From IMG/VR virus record IMGVR_UViG_3300027659_000083, positions 1 through 39,225 of that record: a stretch of 39,225 nt of DNA; one strand, given 5' to 3'. Positions 4,950 through 25,357 of this stretch are shown here, piece by piece. The notes under the pieces are model-generated. The model was not told where the DNA came from. It saw nothing but the letters and a program-made list of their open reading frames with translations, and made no database searches. The first letter of the stretch is position 1. Each line of letters begins with the position of its first letter. Made by a program: the position numbers and the translations under genes. The stretch is from a virus.

Positions 4950-7619
4950 ATGAGTTATGTAGATGCCATGTGGGATCGCGACACTGACGCTGTTCATGTT
5001 GTAGAACGAGATCCTAAAAAAGGTAGGTTATTTCAAACTTTCCCGGCCAGGTATATGTTTTACTATCCCGACAGCAAGGGCAAGTATCGTTCAATTTTTA
5101 ACGAACCGTTAAACAAGGTCTCGTGTAAAAATTATAAAGAATTCCAAAAAGAATTAAGAATACATAATGGGCAGAAGTTGTACGAAAGTGACATTAAGCC
5201 CGTGTTCCGCTGCCTTGAAGAAAACTACCTAAATAAAGATGCGCCTAAATTAAATGTAGCATTTTTTGATATTGAGGTAGATTTCGATCCTGAAAGAGGA
5301 TACGCTAGCCCGGATGATCCTTTTATGAAGATTACTGCTATTGCTGTTCACTTGCAATGGTTAGATACAATGATCTGTTTGGCTATTCCTCCCAAAACAT
5401 TAACCATGGAAGAAGCTAAAGAGCAGGTTAAAGAGTTTCCCAACACACACCTGTTTATTAGCGAAGCAGAAATGTTAGATACATTCTTAAACTTGTTAGA
5501 AGATGTAGATGTATTAAGCGGATGGAATAGTGAAGGTTTTGATATTCCGTACACTGTTAATCGTGTTATTAAAGTGTTAAGCAAAGAGGATACACGCAGA
5601 TTTTGTCTGTGGGACAAATTCCCTAAGAAGCGTGAATACGAGAAATTTGGAAAGCAGGCCGAGACATATGATTTAATTGGCCGTGTACACGTTGATAGTT
5701 TAGAATTATATCGCAAATATACATACGAAGAACGCCATAGCTATCGACTAGATGCCATTGCTGAATACGAGTTAGGCGAAACTAAAACAGTATATGAAGG
5801 TACATTGGATCAGTTATATAACAATGACTTCCGTAAGTTTATTGAATACAACAGACAAGACTGTGCGTTGTTAGACAAATTAGATAAGAAACTAAAATTC
5901 ATCGACCTAGCCTCAACAGTGGCACACGAAAATACAGTATTAATACAAACTACAATGGGTGCTGTTGCTGTGACCGAACAGGCAATTATTAACGAAGCAC
6001 ACCATAGAGGATTAATTGTTCCAAGTCGAATCAACAGAGATGACATTACAGATACACAGGCAGCAGGTGCCTATGTTGCTTATCCCAAGAAAGGACTACA
6101 TGATTACATAGGGTCAATGGATATTAACTCACTGTATCCGTCTGTGATTCGTGCGCTTAATATGGGTCCAGAAACTATTATTGGACAGTTAAGACAAGAT
6201 TATACTAAATCTGAAATTGAAACCAAAATTGCCAAAGGTTCTAGCTTTGCGGCGGCATGGGAAGGTAAGTTCGGCAGTAATGAATATGAATTTGTCATGA
6301 GCAAAGATATAGCCAACGATATTACTGTAGATTGGGAAAATGGAGAAACTACTATTTTTAGTGGTGCCCAAATATATGAAATGATTTTTGAAAGTAATCA
6401 GCCTTGGATGCTTTCAGCAAATGGAACTATTTTTACACATGAGTTTGAAGGTGTTATTCCTGGATTATTAAAACGGTGGTATGCTGAACGTAAAGAGATG
6501 CAGACTAAACTTAAAGAAGCAATTAAAGCGGAGAATAAAATTGAAGAAGAATATTGGGATAAACGACAATTGGTTAAGAAGATTAATCTTAACAGCCTAT
6601 ACGGTGCTATTCTTAACGCTGGTTGCAGGTTCTTTGATAATCGTATTGGGCAATCCACAACTCTTACCGGAAGAAGCATTGCTAGGCATATGGCCGGGAA
6701 AATAAATGAAGTGATTACCGGTGAATATAATCACCTAGGTAAAAGTATTATATACGGAGACACTGACTCTGCATATTTCTCAGCATACACAACACTGCGG
6801 AAAGAAATCGATAAAAAAGAAATTTCCTGGACTAAAGAGTCAGTGGTCCAACTGTACGATACTATCGCTGAAGAAGTTAACAGTACATTCCCACAGTTTA
6901 TGCTTGATGATTTTCATTGCCCAAAATCACGTGGAGAAGTTATTAAGGCCGGACGTGAACTTGTTGCCATTAAAGGATTATTCATTACTAAGAAGCGTTA
7001 TGCTGTATTGTATTATGACAAAGAAGGCAAGCGTAGTGATATAGACGGTAAGCCGGGTAAGATCAAAGCTATGGGCCTAGATTTGAAACGTAGTGATACT
7101 CCAGAATTTATGCAAAAGTTCTTAGAAGAAGTACTAACTCGTGTACTAAATGGTTCAGAAGAAACTGAAATTCTTGATATAATCAGTGAATTTAGAACTG
7201 AATTTAAGAATAGACCGGGTTGGGAGAAAGGTAGTCCAAAACGTGCTAACAACATTGCGGAATATCAAGAGAAGGAAAAGAAAGCAGGTAAGGCCAATAT
7301 GCCAGGCCATGTACGTGCAAGTATTAACTGGAATACATTAAAGCGTATGAACGGTGACAAATATAGTCAGCAGATTGTTGACGGTATGAAAGTTATTGTT
7401 TGTAAGGTAAAAGATAATCCGTTAGGCTATACTAGCGTAGCATATCCTGTAGACGAACTTCGATTACCTAAATGGTTTCAAGAACTACCGTTTGATCATG
7501 CCGAGATGGAATCTACTATTATTAACAATAAAATCGAAAACCTTATCGGAGTACTAGAATGGGATTTAGATTCAACTACTCAAAATAACACATTTGGAAA
7601 TTTATTCAGTTTTGAATAA
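4950..7619 (+). CDS. 43: Replicative DNA polymerase, family B (T4 gp43 type)
   Basis: An 889-residue polymerase, close to the roughly 900 residues of T4 gp43. The 3'-5' exonuclease motifs are intact: FFDIEVDF (Exo I, D107 and E109), NSEGFDIPYT (Exo II, D198) and YNRQDC (Exo III, D304). The polymerase motifs are DINSLYPSVI (motif A, D391), KKINLNSLYG (motif B, 543-552) and IYGDTDSAYF (motif C, D604 and D606). The C-terminal QNNTFGNLFSFE resembles the clamp-binding tail of RB69/T4 polymerase. The AGGAG site is 5 nt before ATG, directly behind the hairpin pair, suggesting translational self-control. No promoter stands directly before the gene, so it is probably read from the one at 4266. The clamp gene follows under its own promoter. 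Confidence 0.97.
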   Translation: MSYVDAMWDRDTDAVHVVERDPKKGRLFQTFPARYMFYYPDSKGKYRSIFNEPLNKVSCKNYKEFQKELRIHNGQKLYESDIKPVFRCLEENYLNKDAPKLNVAFFDIEVDFDPERGYASPDDPFMKITAIAVHLQWLDTMICLAIPPKTLTMEEAKEQVKEFPNTHLFISEAEMLDTFLNLLEDVDVLSGWNSEGFDIPYTVNRVIKVLSKEDTRRFCLWDKFPKKREYEKFGKQAETYDLIGRVHVDSLELYRKYTYEERHSYRLDAIAEYELGETKTVYEGTLDQLYNNDFRKFIEYNRQDCALLDKLDKKLKFIDLASTVAHENTVLIQTTMGAVAVTEQAIINEAHHRGLIVPSRINRDDITDTQAAGAYVAYPKKGLHDYIGSMDINSLYPSVIRALNMGPETIIGQLRQDYTKSEIETKIAKGSSFAAAWEGKFGSNEYEFVMSKDIANDITVDWENGETTIFSGAQIYEMIFESNQPWMLSANGTIFTHEFEGVIPGLLKRWYAERKEMQTKLKEAIKAENKIEEEYWDKRQLVKKINLNSLYGAILNAGCRFFDNRIGQSTTLTGRSIARHMAGKINEVITGEYNHLGKSIIYGDTDSAYFSAYTTLRKEIDKKEISWTKESVVQLYDTIAEEVNSTFPQFMLDDFHCPKSRGEVIKAGRELVAIKGLFITKKRYAVLYYDKEGKRSDIDGKPGKIKAMGLDLKRSDTPEFMQKFLEEVLTRVLNGSEETEILDIISEFRTEFKNRPGWEKGSPKRANNIAEYQEKEKKAGKANMPGHVRASINWNTLKRMNGDKYSQQIVDGMKVIVCKVKDNPLGYTSVAYPVDELRLPKWFQELPFDHAEMESTIINNKIENLIGVLEWDLDSTTQNNTFGNLFSFE

Positions 7620-7673: not shown

Positions 7674-8408
7674 ATGCAAGACTTATTAAAAGATATCGTA
7701 GGACATACACACAATCTTGGCTTTTTAAATATTGTTAAGATCTCGGGTGATGATTCTAAAACCTCGATCGATTCAATGGCTGACGATAGATCAGTTATTA
7801 TGCAAGCAGAAACTGCCGATCCACATCCAGACATGATAGGAGTGTTTGGTATGCCACAACTTAACAAACTTAAATACCTTTTAGATTGCCCGGAATATAA
7901 AGAAGGTGCTTCAATTGAAGTTGTAAAAGCAATAAGAAATGACGAAGAACTTCCAGTTGGACTTCACTTTGAAAATGCAGGCAAAGATTTTAAGAATGAC
8001 TATCGGTTTATGAATACCGAAATTATTAACGAAAAACTTAAAACTGTTAAGTTCCGCGGAGTTAAATGGGATGTTGAAGTTAGTCCTACTGTACAGTCTA
8101 TTCAACGGTTTAACTTCCAAGCAGGTGCCAATAACGAGCACACAACTTTCTTGGCTAAAACAGATGGTGCAAATCTAAAATTTATTTTTGGCGATCAGGC
8201 AACACACGGTGGCGAATTTATTTTTGCAACCAATGTAGTAGGTAGCCTAAATAAAGCATGGACATGGCCAGTAGCCAGTGTATTAGGTATTTTAAAAATT
8301 GCAGATGCTAACAATGCTAAAATCAGTTTTAGTAATGAAGGTGCTATGCAAATTACACTAGATAGCGGTATTGCTACTTACAAGTATATTATTCCAGCTA
8401 ACGCATGA
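7674..8408 (+). CDS. 45: Sliding clamp, DNA polymerase processivity factor (gp45 type)
   Basis: A 244-residue protein just after the polymerase, comparable with the 228 residues of T4 gp45, which forms a trimeric ring that holds the polymerase on DNA and also activates late transcription. It shows features of the gp45 fold: an N-terminal LLKDIVGHTHNLGFLNIVKI segment, an acidic VIMQAETADPHPDMIGVFGM region, TTFLAKTDGANLKFIFGDQ and a C-terminal GAMQITLDSGIATYKYIIP strand pair. It has its own consensus promoter and an AAAGGA site, and its stop overlaps the next start (ATGA). In T4-like phages the clamp binds partners through hydrophobic C-terminal tails; two such tails, on polymerase and DpdA, are seen here. 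Confidence 0.85.
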   Translation: MQDLLKDIVGHTHNLGFLNIVKISGDDSKTSIDSMADDRSVIMQAETADPHPDMIGVFGMPQLNKLKYLLDCPEYKEGASIEVVKAIRNDEELPVGLHFENAGKDFKNDYRFMNTEIINEKLKTVKFRGVKWDVEVSPTVQSIQRFNFQAGANNEHTTFLAKTDGANLKFIFGDQATHGGEFIFATNVVGSLNKAWTWPVASVLGILKIADANNAKISFSNEGAMQITLDSGIATYKYIIPANA

Positions 8409-8770
8409 TAAAAAGCCTTACACAACAGGGAATGTTTACACAGGTTAGCAATGGCTCTCCTGCTTCGACATTTTATCAAACTGGACAACCTATGTCCGGT
8501 CAGGTAAGATATTGTAATAACGAATTTGAAGTTTACGACGGCTCAATTTGGCATAAGATACAAGGTTCATATGCAAGTGTAGGATTAACATCAAGCGCCG
8601 AATCTGCAATAAATTGGGCATTAGGTAAAATGAACGAAGAAAATGAACTTAAAAAATTAAGTAATGAACACCCTGCTGTTAAGATTGCATATGAAAATAT
8701 GAAACGTGCCGCCGAACAATTAGAAATAACACAAATATTAAGCAAAGAAGAATATGAATCCACCAGTTAA
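8405..8770 (+). CDS. Conserved small T4-like phage protein of unknown function
   Basis: A 121-residue protein starting in an ATGA overlap with the clamp gene and ending 17 bp inside the DpdA gene, so all three are likely translated together. The N-terminal half is beta-rich, with GQVRYCNNEFEVYDGSIWHK, the same kind of YDGxxW strand pair seen in phage fibre proteins. The C-terminal half is helical (residues 64-115: SAESAINWALGKMNEENELK and on). I recognise similar proteins from other marine T4-like phages, without a function. Its place between the clamp and the DNA-modifying enzyme makes a replication role possible, while the YDG motif would rather suggest a virion role. Confidence 0.6.
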   Translation: MIKSLTQQGMFTQVSNGSPASTFYQTGQPMSGQVRYCNNEFEVYDGSIWHKIQGSYASVGLTSSAESAINWALGKMNEENELKKLSNEHPAVKIAYENMKRAAEQLEITQILSKEEYESTS

Positions 8771-10301
8771 TTTAACGCCCTTACAGAAAGACTATGCTGT
8801 CTATTTGCCAGCTATTAGTAGTTTCTATAGCACCTATGTTGCTAAACAGAGATTAGAAGAATTTGTACCAAAGGATCGTATTCCGGCAGATTTTGATCGA
8901 GGTATCGAAGGTATGAACTTTTTAAATCCTGAACAAGGATATTTTACCTACAAATATGGTCTGTACTCTGCGGGTCATGCACAACTAGACTTGAATAAAT
9001 CAATGACACAAGAGTCAATGATTCAACAGCGTGACAGAAATAACACAATGATCTTAGGTGACTCCGGCGGATATCAAATTGGTAAAGGTGTTCTTAAATT
9101 TGATTGGTTAGATTTTGAAGGTAAGAGTGCTAATAAAACTCGTCAAAATATTTTAGAATGGCTTGAATTAACTGCTGATTGGTCAATGATGCTAGACGTT
9201 CCTACGTGGGCTTGCGATCATATTCACAGTCCAAAGACAGGATTAAAAACATTTGAAGATTGTTTAGATAAAACTCGCTTTAACAACAAGTACTTCTTAG
9301 ATAATCGATTAGGTCAGACTAAATGGCTTAATGTTTTACAAGGTGGCGATTGGGATACTGCCGAACAGTGGTACCAAGGTGTAAAAGAATTTAGCGACCC
9401 AATTGGCCCATACGCAGGCAAGGAAGCAGAAGGTTGGGCTTTTGGTGGTGCCAATATGTGTAAAATGGATATTACTCTTAAGCGTCTAATGACACTTAGA
9501 GAAGACGATTTGCTCAAAGGCAAAAACTGGATCCACTTCTTGGGTACAGCTCAGTTAGACTGGTCATGTTATTTGACCCTTATTCAACGACAAATCAGGA
9601 AACATATCAATGAAGAAATTACCATATCTTTTGACTGCGCCTCACCGTTTATTGCAACAGCACACGGACTTGTCTACACCAACGCAGTCCACACACCCAA
9701 GCGGTGGAGTGTTATTATGGACAAAGCCCCAGATAATAAAGCCTTGTCAGGAAGCAACATACCTTTCCCATTCGAAAGTGAAATTGGCCGTAGGTTAACT
9801 ATTGGAGATATTTGTCACTATGCACCGGGCATGTTAAACAAAATTAACAAAGAAGGCAAAACAAGTTGGGATAGTTTTGCCTATGCGTTAATGATGGGGC
9901 ATAATGTATACTGTCACATTGTTGCCGTACAACGTTCTCAACAATTAATGGACATCGAAATTGCTAAAACCAAAGATAAACTTCATTGGAGTCATTGGAA
10001 GAAAGTTAAATCAGGAGATATGAGTGATGAATATTCAGATTGGGTTCCACGTAACATCCTGTATTTTTCTACACTAGTTGAAGATTTGTTTAATACCAAA
10101 AACAAAACTGAAGCATTTGAAATGATCGATAAAGCTATCCCGTTTTTAAAATCATTAGAAGGTGCTCGATTGCAAGGCGGTCCTGCTCAAAATACATTTG
10201 GTAGTTTGTTTGCATTTGAAGAAGTAACGAACGCAGACGAAGTTGATTTAGGAAATCCGGATGACGACGAGTTACGTGCTTTGGAAGAATCAATATCTTG
10301 A
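8754..10301 (+). CDS. dpdA: DpdA-type DNA guanine transglycosylase with clamp-binding-like tail
   Basis: A 515-residue relative of tRNA-guanine transglycosylase (TGT). The TGT-fold motifs are in order: LGDSGGYQIG (101-110, D103), MMLDVP (D148), VLQGGDW (194-200), AFGGANM (229-235) and ISFDCASP (291-298), where D294 matches the TGT nucleophile. The CxCxxC zinc site usual in tRNA enzymes is not evident. Phage DpdA proteins exchange guanine in DNA for a 7-deazaguanine base. FolE and QueE in this window would make the precursor, which supports DNA over tRNA as substrate. Residues 479-489, QNTFGSLFAFE, nearly copy the polymerase C-terminus and suggest sliding-clamp binding; an acidic tail follows. 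A tRNA-modifying enzyme is the main alternative. Confidence 0.82.
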   Translation: MNPPVNLTPLQKDYAVYLPAISSFYSTYVAKQRLEEFVPKDRIPADFDRGIEGMNFLNPEQGYFTYKYGLYSAGHAQLDLNKSMTQESMIQQRDRNNTMILGDSGGYQIGKGVLKFDWLDFEGKSANKTRQNILEWLELTADWSMMLDVPTWACDHIHSPKTGLKTFEDCLDKTRFNNKYFLDNRLGQTKWLNVLQGGDWDTAEQWYQGVKEFSDPIGPYAGKEAEGWAFGGANMCKMDITLKRLMTLREDDLLKGKNWIHFLGTAQLDWSCYLTLIQRQIRKHINEEITISFDCASPFIATAHGLVYTNAVHTPKRWSVIMDKAPDNKALSGSNIPFPFESEIGRRLTIGDICHYAPGMLNKINKEGKTSWDSFAYALMMGHNVYCHIVAVQRSQQLMDIEIAKTKDKLHWSHWKKVKSGDMSDEYSDWVPRNILYFSTLVEDLFNTKNKTEAFEMIDKAIPFLKSLEGARLQGGPAQNTFGSLFAFEEVTNADEVDLGNPDDDELRALEESIS

Positions 10302-10334: not shown

Positions 10335-10424
10335 ATGAATACGCCAGATCCTAAAGATATTCCTACTACTCCTGAAGAAGAAGAGTATTGGAAAGAATTA
10401 GAAAAAAAGCAGAAACAACAATGA
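10335..10424 (+). CDS. 29-residue leader-type ORF
   Basis: ATG at 10335 opens 29 codons (MNTPDPKDIPTTPEEEEYWK and on), ending KQKQQ, with a TGA that overlaps the next ATG (10421-10424). There is no ribosome-binding site, because the predicted RNA begins about two bases before this ATG; it would have to be translated leaderlessly. The next gene also lacks a good site, so this peptide may exist to carry ribosomes to it. The highly charged sequence has no known relative. Confidence 0.45.
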   Translation: MNTPDPKDIPTTPEEEEYWKELEKKQKQQ

Positions 10425-10960
10425 TACGTAATTACAGCACAGGCGAATCTCAAGAAGTAGTCTTCTTTACTGGTACAGAAATCGAGCATACACCTGCATA
10501 CGGAATGCCAACTCTGTTTGTCACAGGTGTACAGTCTACTCAAGAAATACAAGATTGGTTAGATGATTTTGCCAGTTACGAAGATGTATCCAAACATATC
10601 AAGCATATTTTCTTTGGTGCTAATCACAGTTTCAATCCTACAGACAGATTAAATTGGCAACGTTGGGAAACTATGATTGAGTATTTTCTTGAAAGAGGAT
10701 ACTTGTGTTCATTAGATATTCCGTTAAGTTCTGTAGAAGAGTTCAATGACGGTGGATTGAATGATTACGATAACTTTATTCCGCAGATAAGAGTTCCGAT
10801 TCCATATATTAAATTATGGAATTATAACACGATGCTTAAAATCGACGATAAAGATTTTAATGCTACTAATCCAGGCGTATGGTCCCACAGCCTGCACGAT
10901 TTAAAAGATCGTAGTAAATTTACAAGTTGGGACCAATATAAAAATGACGAGATTTTATGA
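10421..10960 (+). CDS. Conserved T4-like phage protein next to dpdA, function unknown
   Basis: A 180-residue protein from the ATG at 10421, chosen because it overlaps the preceding TGA; an upstream TTG at 10388 would add 11 residues. Recognisable segments are VVFFTGTEIEHTPAYGMPTL near the start, HIFFGANHSF (about 61-70), a helix with WETMIEYFLERGYLCSLDIP, and KIDDKDFNATNPGVWSH (about 143-160). I recall close relatives in marine T4-like phages without function. The alternating strands and helices suggest an alpha/beta barrel-like fold, but no cysteine cluster or cofactor motif is seen. It heads the operon with the QueD-like protein and follows dpdA, so a part in the deazaguanine pathway is a guess from position. 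Confidence 0.6.
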   Translation: MIRNYSTGESQEVVFFTGTEIEHTPAYGMPTLFVTGVQSTQEIQDWLDDFASYEDVSKHIKHIFFGANHSFNPTDRLNWQRWETMIEYFLERGYLCSLDIPLSSVEEFNDGGLNDYDNFIPQIRVPIPYIKLWNYNTMLKIDDKDFNATNPGVWSHSLHDLKDRSKFTSWDQYKNDEIL

Positions 10961-13734: not shown

Positions 13735-14478
13735 TTGACAAATAAAGAAACAGCACTAGACGCTATGTATGGCGACGGTGGCTATCAAGAAGCGTATCTC
13801 GGAGACCATCTTCGTTTTAAAATGAAACGTGAGGGCAAACGCTTCTGGGCAGGTGATAACATTAGTGATTACGTCAACGAAGCCGACAAAGCAAAACTAA
13901 TTCAAGAAACAACAGAAGCATTTGAGACAGTGCTTGATCGTTTGCTAATCGATCGAGAAACTGATCCAAACAGTAAAGGCACAGCCCGTCGATTAGCTAA
14001 AATGTATTTTAACGAAATAATGGCAGGAAGATATGAACCAGCACCAGACGCAACGGCATTCCCAAATGATAGTGAAGATAGGTACGAAGGTATGTTGGTT
14101 GTTCGCAGTGAGCTACGGTCCATGTGCTCTCATCATCACCAGCCTGTATCTGGGGTTGCCTACATCGGTATCATTGCCGCTAATAAACTCATTGGTCTTT
14201 CTAAATATACTCGTATCGCACAATGGTGTGCTCGTCGAGGAACACTACAAGAAGAACTCTGCAACGACATTGCTAGAGAAATAATGAAGGCAACTGATAG
14301 CGAGAATGTTGCTGTTTATATTCAAGCAACTCATGGATGTTGTGAAAATCGTGGCATTATGGCACACTCTAGTCTTACGCAGACTACAGTATTAAAAGGT
14401 GCGTTTAATACAGACGGTAATACTAAGAAAGAGTTTTTTGACAACATCAAACTACAACAGGAGTTTGCACCGCGATGA
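13735..14478 (+). CDS. folE: GTP cyclohydrolase I, divergent (FolE)
   Basis: A 247-residue protein beginning with TTG at 13735, supported by GGAG eight bases upstream and the promoter; the next in-frame ATG is ten codons later. The FolE signature is present in altered form: MCSHHHQPVSG (C131, H133, H134) in place of CEHHLLPF, LIGLSKYTRI (152-161), WCARRGTLQEELC (164-176) and THGCCENRGI (H200, C202, R206). These give the usual Cys/His/Cys zinc ligands. FolE turns GTP into dihydroneopterin triphosphate, the first step of folate and 7-deazaguanine synthesis. With QueE and DpdA in the window, base modification is the likelier use. It overlaps the next small gene in ATGA. Confidence 0.88.
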   Translation: MTNKETALDAMYGDGGYQEAYLGDHLRFKMKREGKRFWAGDNISDYVNEADKAKLIQETTEAFETVLDRLLIDRETDPNSKGTARRLAKMYFNEIMAGRYEPAPDATAFPNDSEDRYEGMLVVRSELRSMCSHHHQPVSGVAYIGIIAANKLIGLSKYTRIAQWCARRGTLQEELCNDIAREIMKATDSENVAVYIQATHGCCENRGIMAHSSLTQTTVLKGAFNTDGNTKKEFFDNIKLQQEFAPR

Positions 14479-14812: not shown

Positions 14813-15508
14813 ATGTTTGGTGCAAACTATACAGATGGCGGTATTTTAAATTATCGCTCAGCAGAAGAAATTAATTCAGCAATGGGTCGGGTCTACGGAC
14901 ATATGAGTCTAGCAGTAATAGTATCGATGCTAGTTAGTTACTGGGTTGGAACTACTCCAGAATTATTGCAGTTCTTTTTTACAGGCGTAACAAAATGGAT
15001 TGTAATCTTTTCACCGCTATTAGCAATATTTGGTATTTCTGCAGTATTGGCTAACAATCCTAGTAAAGGTGTAGCACAGTTATGTTTGCACGGATTTGCG
15101 GCACTTATGGGCTTGAGCTTTGCCACAATCTTTGCTGTGTTCACCATGGGGTCAATTGTGAGTGCATTCATGGGCGCGGCTGTACTGTTTGGTGTTATGA
15201 GTTTTTATGGATACTTTACCAAACGTAGTCTAGACAGCATGGGTAAGTTTATGTTTGTTGGATTAATTGCTATTGTTATCGCTAGCATTGTAAATATTTT
15301 TATTGGTTCTAGTGTAATGGCAATGGTCATTAGTGCCCTGGCAATCATTATCTTCTTAGGATTAACAGCATACGACACCCAAAAGATTCGTGAAGAACTT
15401 AGTGTAGACACAAGTCCTGCGGCGGAAGTTAGTGGTGCATTGACTCTTTATATGGACTTTATTAACTTGTTTATCAACTTGTTGCAGTTATTCGGCGATA
15501 GAAAATAA
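14813..15508 (+). CDS. Bax inhibitor-1/YccA-like membrane protein
   Basis: A 231-residue protein with about seven hydrophobic helices after a short polar N-terminus. The opening INSAMGRVYGHMSLAVIVSM and the C-terminal LGLTAYDTQKIREEL are characteristic of the BI-1 (TMBIM, YbhL/YccA) family, where the conserved TAYDTQ sits before the last segment; length agrees with the family (about 220-235). Bacterial members act in the inner membrane as pH-sensitive calcium leak channels or, for YccA, as inhibitors of the FtsH protease. A strong AAGGAG site precedes the ATG. In a phage it might protect phage proteins from FtsH or delay membrane damage; this is inference. Confidence 0.85.
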   Translation: MFGANYTDGGILNYRSAEEINSAMGRVYGHMSLAVIVSMLVSYWVGTTPELLQFFFTGVTKWIVIFSPLLAIFGISAVLANNPSKGVAQLCLHGFAALMGLSFATIFAVFTMGSIVSAFMGAAVLFGVMSFYGYFTKRSLDSMGKFMFVGLIAIVIASIVNIFIGSSVMAMVISALAIIIFLGLTAYDTQKIREELSVDTSPAAEVSGALTLYMDFINLFINLLQLFGDRK

Positions 15509-16862: not shown

Positions 16863-17143
16863 ACACTAAAGAAAGAGAAGTGATGAATATCCTTAGTGAA
16901 GAATGTGCTGAGGTAATTCAAGCAGTTAGTAAATGTCATAGATTTGGCTTGAATAATTTTAAACCAGGTAAACCAAAAACAAACTGTGAACATTTAGAAG
17001 AAGAAATCGGTGACCTTTTAGCTATGGTAGATATTTTAGTTGACATCGGAGTGGTTGATCAAGTATCATTAGAAGTAGCAAAAATAGCTAAAATAGAAAA
17101 ACTAAAGAAATGGTCGAACATTTATGAAAATCAAAATCAGTGA
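16859..17143 (+). CDS. MazG-like nucleotide pyrophosphohydrolase
   Basis: A 94-residue all-helical protein with the metal-binding pattern of the MazG/all-alpha NTP pyrophosphatase group: EECAE (E14, E15, E18) and LEEEIGD (E49, D52). Such enzymes cleave NTPs to NMPs and pyrophosphate; phage members have been linked to nucleotide-pool or alarmone control. Length fits the single-domain phage type. Its last 20 bases overlap queE, so the two are translationally linked. It might remove unwanted dNTPs or handle a deazaguanine-pathway nucleotide; the substrate cannot be read from the sequence. Confidence 0.75.
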   Translation: MNTKEREVMNILSEECAEVIQAVSKCHRFGLNNFKPGKPKTNCEHLEEEIGDLLAMVDILVDIGVVDQVSLEVAKIAKIEKLKKWSNIYENQNQ

Positions 17144-17978
17144 AATTTTTTATTCCGCACAAGGTGAAGGACGCTTTATTGGCGTCCCATCAGTGTTTCT
17201 ACGCACCTTTGGGTGTAACTTTAAATGTGCCGGCTTTGGTTGTGCTCCGGGAGTTAAATCAGCAGAAGCAGATGATATTGCTAAACAAGTGCATCTATAC
17301 AAAGACTTTAACAGTCTTCCATTAGTTAATACAGGTTGTGATAGCTATGCTAGTTGGCATCCTGCATTTAAAGATTTAAGTCCTTCGTACAGTACAGACG
17401 AAATTGTACAAAAGATGCTGGCATTGACACCCAATAATAAATGGGTACAAGAAAACGGGAATGATGTACATTTGGTCATAACGGGTGGGGAGCCGTTACT
17501 AGGTTGGCAAAAGGGCTTTGAAGAAATCCTTGCTCATCCATTAATGCAGGATATTCGTAATGTGACATTTGAAACAAATGGTACACAACCACTTCATGAA
17601 AAATTTAAAAAGTTTCTAGAAGAATGGTATTTCTCTAAACGAGAAATTACATTTAGTGTCAGTGCTAAATTAAGTTCGTCTGGCGAGAAATGGGAAGAAG
17701 CAATTAAGCCCGAAATTGTGCAAGAGTATGCTTCATGGGGTCATACATACTTAAAGTTTGTTGTCGAAACAGAAGAACATTTTAAAGAAGTTGATGTGGC
17801 TGTTAAGGAATACCGAAACGCCGGATTTGACGGCAGTGTCTATGTTATGCCACAAGGCGGAGTTGTTGCACCTTATGCCGCTAATCGAGTGCGTGTTGCT
17901 GATTGGGCAGTTAGTAAAGGTTATTATTATAGTCCAAGGTTGCATGTTGATCTTTGGGGAAATGGATGGGGCAAATAA
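17124..17978 (+). CDS. queE: 7-carboxy-7-deazaguanine synthase (QueE), radical SAM
   Basis: A 284-residue radical SAM enzyme. The opening FYSAQGEGRFIGVPSVFLRT (9-28) is the QueE substrate-loop signature; LVITGGEPL (118-125) binds SAM and FETNGT is the next family motif. The cluster cysteines are C31 and C35 (GCNFKCAGFGC), but the third, in GCDSYASW (C72; usually C-D-T), is displaced by 36 residues, with C40 an alternative ligand. QueE turns carboxytetrahydropterin into 7-carboxy-7-deazaguanine, the core base for queuosine and for deazaguanine DNA modification. The gene begins inside the MazG-like gene and ends in TAATG with the next. QueC, needed for preQ0, is not in the window. Confidence 0.92.
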   Translation: MKIKISEIFYSAQGEGRFIGVPSVFLRTFGCNFKCAGFGCAPGVKSAEADDIAKQVHLYKDFNSLPLVNTGCDSYASWHPAFKDLSPSYSTDEIVQKMLALTPNNKWVQENGNDVHLVITGGEPLLGWQKGFEEILAHPLMQDIRNVTFETNGTQPLHEKFKKFLEEWYFSKREITFSVSAKLSSSGEKWEEAIKPEIVQEYASWGHTYLKFVVETEEHFKEVDVAVKEYRNAGFDGSVYVMPQGGVVAPYAANRVRVADWAVSKGYYYSPRLHVDLWGNGWGK

Positions 17979-23828: not shown

Positions 23829-24398
23829 ATGAAACACGTTGGCAAAATGAAAAACAACTCGGCTAGGGTTGTAGTTGCATATCGAACAGTTCCAGGCGAG
23901 CCCTTAAATTGTTTAATTATAGGAACCCAGGGACTCGGTGATAGCTATCATGACACACTTATGAATGTTGTCGACAGTGATAGCGGTCAACAGGCCAACG
24001 ATTTGGCCGATGTACTAGCAGCCAGGAGATTTCCAGATGGTAGTAACATGTTAGGGTATCTCCACTCAAATGGGCATCTTAGAAAAGTTTCCACTAACCT
24101 AGTACTAATGACTCCGGATACTAAGACTTCAATTCAACTAGATCAGTTAAATGCAATTATTGCAGAGCAACAAGGTAAAACAGTCGAAGACCTGGCAGTA
24201 GACAATACTACAATCCCCCCTACTCCTACTGAATCTAAAAAGACAGAAGCACAAGGAAAGGGATTTGAAATGTCGCCCTCCGAAATGCGATCACGTGCAG
24301 ATGCTTTATATAAGGAAGCCGCGAGGTTGCGAAAAGAGGCGGATGAACAAGATCCCCCTAAAAGTAAAACTAAGAAGGCTACTGCTACAACTGAATGA
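23829..24398 (+). CDS. Conserved T4-like phage protein with charged tail
   Basis: A 189-residue protein with AGGAGAAAATT before ATG. The N-terminal two thirds (MKHVGKMKNNSARVVVAYRT, then DSYHDTLMNVVDSD, QQANDLADVLAARRFPDGSN and LMTPDTKTSIQLDQLNAIIA) is a family I recognise from cyanophages and other marine phages, where it has no function. The C-terminal 45 residues are a charged helix (MRSRADALYKEAARLRKEAD) and a Lys-rich end. Its stop overlaps the ATG of the thymidylate synthase gene (ATGA). Confidence 0.65.
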   Translation: MKHVGKMKNNSARVVVAYRTVPGEPLNCLIIGTQGLGDSYHDTLMNVVDSDSGQQANDLADVLAARRFPDGSNMLGYLHSNGHLRKVSTNLVLMTPDTKTSIQLDQLNAIIAEQQGKTVEDLAVDNTTIPPTPTESKKTEAQGKGFEMSPSEMRSRADALYKEAARLRKEADEQDPPKSKTKKATATTE

Positions 24399-25357
24399 TT
24401 GGTTTCATAGTTAAGCAAGTCAAAGGCATAGGCCGAAAGGTCATGCCTTTTATTATACCCGAAGAGTACAAAGAAATGAAACACCCAGAATACGCATACC
24501 TAGATGTATTAAAAGATATTTTAGCAACAGGGGAACATCGTCCTGATAGAACCGGTGTAGGAACCATTAGTAAGTTTGGTCTGCAGATGAGGTTTGATCT
24601 TACCAAAGGATTTCCGGCTATTACTACAAAAAAATTAGCCTGGAAATCAGTTGTATCGGAATTGCTTTGGTTCATAAGCGGTAGTGGTGATGAAAGAAAA
24701 TTAAAAGAAATATTACACGGGGATTCTACCAGCGATAAAAAAACTATTTGGTCAGATAATGCCGAGTCCCAATATTGGCGACCAAGATCTAAATTTAAAG
24801 GAGATCTTGGTCGAGTATACGGGGTTCAATGGAGGACTTGGAGGGCTCCTGTGTTTGGTGCTAACAAAATGGGATTAAGACATGTAGATCAATTACAAGA
24901 TCTAATTAATAGTCTTACCAACGATCCCTACAGCAGACGCCATATTATAACAGCATGGAACCCGGGAGAACTAGATGCTATGGCACTTCCGCCTTGCCAT
25001 ATGATGTCTCAGTTTTATATTACTACAGACGGTAAATTAAATTGTCACATGTACCAACGATCGGCTGATATGTTCCTAGGAGTTCCATTTAATATTGCCA
25101 GTTATGCGCTACTTACTCATATGCTTGCACACGTTTGTAATTTATATGTAGGGGAGTTAGTTATAACATTTGGCGATGCACACATTTATGAAAATCATGT
25201 AGAACAAGTTAAAGAGCAATTAGAAAGAAAACCCTTAGATTTGCCTAATATTGTTCTTAATGCTGATGTTCAGAATATTAATAAGTTTACCATGCAAGAT
25301 ATCGAGTTAACTGACTACCAATCTTGGGATGCTATTAAAGCGGATATGGCTGTTTAA
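24395..25357 (+). CDS. td: Thymidylate synthase
   Basis: A 320-residue ThyA-type enzyme from the ATG overlapping the previous stop; a second ATG at 24476 (MKHPEYAYLDVLKDILATG) would give 293 residues and is where most relatives begin. Conserved parts are EHRPDRTGVGT (R52), ELLWFISGSG, DPYSRRHIITAWNP (178-190), MALPPCHMMSQFY with catalytic C201, QRSADMFLGVPFNIASYALL (221-240) and HIYENHVEQ. It methylates dUMP to dTMP using methylene-tetrahydrofolate, supplying thymidine for phage DNA. There is no intron, unlike T4 td. Its stop overlaps the stop of the convergent tail-fibre gene in TTTAAA, with no space for a terminator. Confidence 0.95.
   Translation: MIGFIVKQVKGIGRKVMPFIIPEEYKEMKHPEYAYLDVLKDILATGEHRPDRTGVGTISKFGLQMRFDLTKGFPAITTKKLAWKSVVSELLWFISGSGDERKLKEILHGDSTSDKKTIWSDNAESQYWRPRSKFKGDLGRVYGVQWRTWRAPVFGANKMGLRHVDQLQDLINSLTNDPYSRRHIITAWNPGELDAMALPPCHMMSQFYITTDGKLNCHMYQRSADMFLGVPFNIASYALLTHMLAHVCNLYVGELVITFGDAHIYENHVEQVKEQLERKPLDLPNIVLNADVQNINKFTMQDIELTDYQSWDAIKADMAV

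Follow-up and report, generated by a model that had tools for sequence, protein, structure and literature searches.

A polymerase-like, putative clamp-binding tail on a phage DpdA-like protein

Introduction

DNMT1 is recruited to PCNA via a PIP box, so that new DNA gets modified. It is a eukaryotic methyltransferase with an N-terminal motif and serves pattern maintenance, in contrast to the bulk base exchange considered here for a phage DpdA. In phage T4, the C-termini of gp43, gp55, and gp33 carry similar hydrophobic-acidic gp45-binding motifs that are interchangeable, and an internal clamp motif is tolerated in gp55-gp33 fusions (PMC2988020). The C-terminus of T4-type polymerases is a known clamp-binding peptide (PMC2988020; PMC7892883, citing Shamoo and Steitz). 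The T4 alpha-glucosyltransferase (alpha-GT) also binds gp45, as found by pull-down in 2026 (PMC13216743) and earlier by Sommer 2004, as cited there; the alpha/beta ratio in T4 is set mainly by expression rather than by clamp binding of alpha-GT (PMC13216743).

By analogy, T4 alpha-GT is the closest precedent for a clamp-bound DpdA. Like the DpdA proposed here, it is a phage DNA-modifying enzyme bound to the sliding clamp, but enzyme and chemistry are unrelated, it is without a C-terminal polymerase-like tail, and its role in setting the modification level is contested (PMC13216743). The T4 sliding-clamp-binding motifs (SCBMs) resemble the DpdA tail in being short hydrophobic-acidic peptides on flexible tails, and within one phage those of the polymerase and of its fellow clients are alike; they differ in their known clients (polymerase, late sigma, coactivator, and ligase), and the tail letters of T4 gp43 (ASLDFLFG) and RB69 gp43 (KASLFDMFDF) are not those of the DpdA motif. 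The phage DpdA and DpdA2 proteins of 9g and nt-1 exchange bases in the TGT manner, as the present protein would, and a pathway supplying 7-deazaguanine probably accompanies them. In the mainly open-access literature searched, as far as its accessible text extends, we found no described DpdA with a clamp-binding tail, and the accessible open-access texts gave no link of DpdA or 7-deazaguanine to a sliding clamp. How every new phage genome copy is modified in time, before it meets host nucleases, is largely unexplained for post-replicative base exchange.

Results

A TGT-fold protein encoded beside a polymerase and a predicted sliding clamp

The window, that is, the whole 39,225-nucleotide stretch of viral DNA analyzed here (IMG/VR record IMGVR_UViG_3300027659_000083), contains the following features around dpdA.

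4950 to 7619, plus strand: family B DNA polymerase, 889 aa (phrog_262, E 7e-197; PF00136, PF03104)
7581 to 7616, plus strand: clamp-binding-like C-terminal tail of the polymerase, its last 12 residues, QNNTFGNLFSFE (conserved as FxxLFxF or xxFFEF in relatives)
7674 to 8408, plus strand: predicted sliding clamp, PCNA fold, 244 aa (AlphaFold2 pLDDT 91; Foldseek)
8405 to 8770, plus strand: 121-aa ORF lying between the clamp gene and dpdA, no tail motif (ORF list, domain searches, pattern scan)
8754 to 10301, plus strand: DpdA-like protein, TGT fold, 515 aa (ORF, AlphaFold2 model, Foldseek)
10188 to 10220, plus strand: clamp-binding-like motif QNTFGSLFAFE, DpdA residues 479-489 (pattern, conservation, codons, pLDDT)
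10221 to 10298, plus strand: acidic C-terminal part of DpdA beyond the motif, EVTNADEVDLGNPDDDELRALEESIS, containing a separate conserved block (conservation, model)

The AlphaFold2 model of DpdA (pLDDT 71, pTM 0.76) was compared with the PDB by Foldseek, and all six top matches were tRNA-guanine transglycosylases (TGTs), with E-values of 7.9e-7 to 1.9e-4 and TM-scores by target of 0.45-0.52. A profile of the DpdA sequence gave no useful match among Pfam and PDB profiles and no detectable similarity to TGTs. For the modeled clamp monomer, the best 50 PDB matches were all PCNA (best E 9.9e-12); the 244-aa protein belongs to no Pfam family, its PHROG match is unnamed, and its sequence profile found nothing useful in Pfam or PDB. 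Both proteins were therefore assigned by fold. The predicted model shows the two-domain fold of a clamp monomer and supports a PCNA-type clamp, the gene for which lies two genes upstream of dpdA, as an earlier note on this DNA had stated, with the small ORF between them.

Asp103 (in GDSGGYQ) and Asp294 (in SFDCASP) were invariant in 55 aligned DpdA sequences, as expected of catalytic residues, and their likeness to known TGT motifs makes them putative counterparts of the TGT catalytic aspartates. The enzyme probably exchanges guanine in DNA for a modified base. Many relatives (e.g., L040 and L055) have an insertion of ∼27 residues after the equivalent of residues 355-360, which the window protein does not have (around 356-371). 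In most relatives dpdA lies within the polymerase-clamp gene block. Several relatives have split or interrupted polymerase genes (L001, L085, L151, L021, L075, and L167): that of PA5oct is interrupted by a Hef-like homing endonuclease gene, the Atu_ph07 polymerase is encoded by two genes, and others show intein- or intron-like truncation. The ORF following dpdA (10388-10960) encodes a 190-aa protein with no Pfam or PHROG match. In L038 (6975-9008), DpdA runs in frame into a homologue of this next ORF, and the motif is kept between the two fused domains; a functional partnership between DpdA and the downstream protein is possible.

The DpdA tail resembles the C-terminus of the polymerase

The 10-residue segments NTFGSLFAFE of DpdA and NTFGNLFSFE of the polymerase are identical at eight positions. 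When the polymerase 10-mer was scored with BLOSUM62 against the window proteins, DpdA reached 46 and the next best protein 22, and in 3000 shuffles of the window proteome the maximum score averaged 22.9 and never exceeded 36. These values bear out the alignment of DpdA residues 479-489 with the polymerase C-terminus proposed in the earlier note, although the motif ends at 10220, two bases before the 10222 given there. The pattern F-x-x-L-F-x-F was found in only two of the 42 window proteins, DpdA and the polymerase, in agreement with the earlier reading; a looser pattern also matches a membrane protein at 14813-15508. The latter is a phage-encoded member of the Bax1-I family (PF01027). By itself, F-x-x-L-F-x-F is not very rare, with 0.09 occurrences expected in a shuffled window proteome, so the argument depends on the longer match together with conservation. 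The likeness to the RB69/T4 polymerase tail that had been suggested holds for RB69 gp43, by hydrophobic class rather than by letter; T4 gp43 is without the final FxF.

In the AlphaFold2 model, DpdA residues 471-497, motif included, have pLDDT values below 50, are predicted to be disordered, and lie outside the modeled barrel; a short helix is present at residues 505-514. The description of the motif as part of an acidic, probably flexible tail is consistent with this prediction, and burial of the motif in the TGT barrel, which would have spoken against it, is not seen in the model. As modeled, the DpdA motif resembles a T4-type SCBM in being a short hydrophobic-aromatic peptide in a disordered acidic tail, and the sequence comparison adds the likeness to the polymerase tail of the same phage. 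The polymerase tail probably serves to hold the phage sliding clamp.

The motif is under selection in close relatives

To describe conservation, we used 54 close DpdA relatives found by tblastn, most of them 81-91% identical to the window protein. Asn480 and Phe486 were retained in all 54, Phe482 in 53, and Leu485 in 51, whereas positions 481, 483, 484, 487, and 488 vary freely (entropy 1.3-2.2 bits in the same 54 sequences). Synonymous change was observed at the invariant codons: both TTT and TTC for Phe, both AAT and AAC for Asn, and five codons (TTG, TTA, CTA, CTG, and CTT) for Leu. Synonymous variation at invariant residues indicates selection on the residues and not recent DNA copying. 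By its sequence pattern, the tail motif is a conserved short linear motif. A second conserved block, acidic and located within 10221-10298, comprises Glu496, Asp498, Asn501, Pro502, Asp504, Leu507, Arg508, and Leu510 and is partly kept in PA5oct.

The motif follows the phage replisome, with exceptions

As controls, we assembled 44 DpdA-like proteins from cellular genome contigs, mostly 25-37% identical and not accompanied by polymerase or clamp genes of this kind in the vicinity. The strict motif was present in one of these 44 and in 105 of 131 phage-type sequences (p 1.5e-21, a value that ignores kinship). Some of the controls are approximately as similar to the window DpdA as is the Vibrio homologue described below, which argues that the motif tracks the phage replisome and not sequence distance. 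Most of the 26 phage-type sequences that fail the strict pattern keep xLF or MF. The DpdA proteins of Phosso and L136 end in VEGLF or IGGIFS, a weak form only and not FxxLF; the Phosso polymerase tail is FNDLFTF, and the Phosso dpdA gene is far from the polymerase and clamp genes. DpdA2 of the T4-like phage nt-1, which belongs to another subfamily and was examined as a further case, ends in YPDFKS with no motif, its polymerase ends in TLESFFG, and it is absent from the tblastn matches of the window DpdA at E 1e-5. Conservation of the motif in homologues encoded with the same polymerase and clamp, by which the earlier note had proposed to judge its reading, was found in most cases, down to ∼30% DpdA identity, and is not universal.

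Distant DpdA tails and the polymerase tails of their own phages

PA5oct encodes a 42% identical DpdA in the same gene order, with the tail NSNSFNSLFDVD; its polymerase end is HFDSLFGW. In Vibrio phage 2.275.O (DpdA identity ∼30%), DpdA terminates in NNNDLFGW and the polymerase in NNTDLFDW. This DpdA C-terminus is the best polymerase-tail match of 884 ORFs in that phage, with a score of 38 compared to 19 for the next, and 38 was reached by none of a million random 8-mers. When the PA5oct or Vibrio DpdA served as a single query, IMG/VR yielded no relatives; an alignment used as the query detected additional loci that are 40-52% identical to PA5oct DpdA. L214-L217 came from scanning cellular genome assemblies, and their contigs encode the same polymerase type. 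L214 pairs FSDLFDID in DpdA with FNDLFDWN in the polymerase, and the L215, L216, and L217 DpdA C-termini FANLFEEV, FNELFG, and FSNLFEEA accompany polymerases ending in FSTLFEF, FNSLFDFGT, and FNTLFDFGE, respectively. The position of the motif varies: it is at the extreme C-terminus in 2.275.O, L146, L147, and L215-L217 and usually 30-40 residues from the end elsewhere.

Matching variants were also found. Both L146 and L147 have DpdA proteins ending in NEFFEF, with polymerases ending in AFFEF and QFFEF, respectively, and FF is present in both the DpdA and polymerase tails of L145, L153, and L185. After the set was thinned to ∼85% identity, an FF polymerase was paired with an FF DpdA in five of five cases, compared to 1 of 44 others (Fisher p 3e-6). 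A tree of the DpdA core places the five FF cases in one clade, together with L151 (whose polymerase gene is interrupted), and they represent about one evolutionary event rather than five; we thus discarded the view of several independent cases of co-variation. In a swap test on the thinned set, the own polymerase tail was favored (23.7 versus 20.0; 0 of 20,000 permutations, kinship ignored). For the PA5oct pair (FDSLFGW and FNSLFDV), the match was not closer than in swapped combinations, and own-tail preference was not seen within the PA5oct group by itself.

A profile built from 108 polymerase tails only was run on the predicted genes of six genomes. It ranked DpdA first in PA5oct (416 genes), and in G001 (296 genes) and G010 (407 genes) only the polymerase stood above it. 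DpdA fell outside the top seven in G011 and G012, where the DpdA tails are divergent (Y-x-x-L-F and INAVFDF), and in 2.275.O, where the polymerase tail is of another type. Three other proteins were considered as tail cases and mostly set aside: a 71-aa G001 protein ending in RLFDF, which has a lipoprotein-type signal sequence, and two proteins with KFGxLF motifs, one a baseplate protein of PA5oct and the other encoded by a large Vibrio ORF.

Supply of 7-deazaguanine

Two further window genes bear on the supply of the modified base.

13735 to 14478, plus strand: FolE, the GTP cyclohydrolase I that begins 7-deazaguanine synthesis (PF01227, E 5e-40)
17124 to 17978, plus strand: candidate QueE-like protein of the radical SAM type (PF04055 at E 2e-5, a match weaker than the curated cut-off)

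In PA5oct, an annotated QueE-like radical SAM gene lies ∼3 kb downstream of dpdA. The QueD family is present in six of seven related genomes, and QueC is clear in Vibrio 2.275.O only and weak in G001. With FolE in the window and QueD in six of seven but QueC clear in one, the picture of the pathway is incomplete. The listing of PA5oct with a deazaguanine synthesis and DNA-incorporation system (PMC7824862) makes a DNA substrate plausible. At 24395-25357 the window also encodes a protein of the thymidylate synthase family (PF00303); in phages such proteins can be deoxynucleotide hydroxymethylases.

Discussion

Given the T4 and RB69 tails, a polymerase-type tail on a second protein encoded beside the clamp gene is best read as a clamp tether. 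On the basis of sequence comparison and predicted structures, we consider it likely that DpdA belongs to the clients of the phage sliding clamp and that base exchange is tethered to replicating DNA. The DpdA tail, like the polymerase C-terminus, would carry a short linear motif that binds the clamp, and the two proteins would use the same hydrophobic pocket of the phage PCNA/gp45-type clamp. Through the flexible acidic tail, the TGT-fold catalytic domain would travel with the loaded clamp, from which DpdA could swap guanine for 7-deazaguanine in freshly copied duplex DNA, such that progeny DNA would be modified behind the fork, before meeting host nucleases. We give an even chance to the broader proposal that replisome-coupled base exchange extends to an entire lineage of large phages, with DpdA competing with or following the polymerase on the clamp pocket, hypermodification kinetically coupled to fork passage, and both tails co-evolving with the clamp.

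A possible, though not the favored, alternative is that the tail binds the clamp for a reason other than modification at the fork: the clamp could be no more than a platform that tracks along DNA, making DpdA locally more concentrated or more processive at any site on the phage genome, or a place to park DpdA. T4 gp55 and gp33 use the same motif type for transcription rather than replication, and the alpha-GT/gp45 interaction hardly sets the T4 modification level, which follows expression (PMC13216743), a caution that by analogy would apply to DpdA. The location of dpdA in the polymerase-clamp block of most relatives makes modification soon after synthesis the obvious use of a tether, but the data fit both readings.

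We regard it as improbable that the motif of both proteins binds a third replisome protein, such as the clamp loader or single-strand binding protein, instead of the clamp. The polymerases here are only distantly related to RB69 gp43, and the clamp is proposed as the partner from sequence; on the other hand, the C-terminus of the related T4-type polymerase is a known clamp-binding peptide (PMC2988020; PMC7892883), and a PCNA-fold protein is encoded next door.

That the enzyme is a tRNA-type TGT with a tail unconnected with DNA seems very doubtful. Although tRNA TGTs are the closest solved structures and no assayed product was found for any member of the window DpdA family, PA5oct, with its 42% identical homologue, is listed with a deazaguanine synthesis and DNA-incorporation system (PMC7824862), and an enzyme acting on tRNA would have little use for a tail of the replisome type; the motif thus speaks for DNA as the target of this divergent TGT-fold family. 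We rejected chance likeness and also the view that the tail was once copied from the polymerase gene close by and persists as a neutral remnant: despite the proximity of the two genes and the expectation for the bare pattern given above, conservation contradicts both, as the invariant positions show synonymous change and the motif is kept at ∼30-50% DpdA identity, with matching variants and a moving position.

If the preferred reading, a clamp-tethered DpdA, is true, a base-exchange enzyme joins the clients of a phage sliding clamp. T4 alpha-GT provides precedent for a clamp-bound phage DNA-modifying enzyme. The peptide common to polymerase and DpdA makes replication coupling directly testable. 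As a general approach, phage proteomes could be searched with their own polymerase tails for other replisome clients.

In 2.275.O, the second-best polymerase-tail match of the 884 ORFs is the 74-aa cysteine-rich protein NVP2275O_204 (L142:2714-2938; MG592671 118713-118937), which ends in MLSSLFEW and is, by this tail, a candidate further clamp client of that phage.
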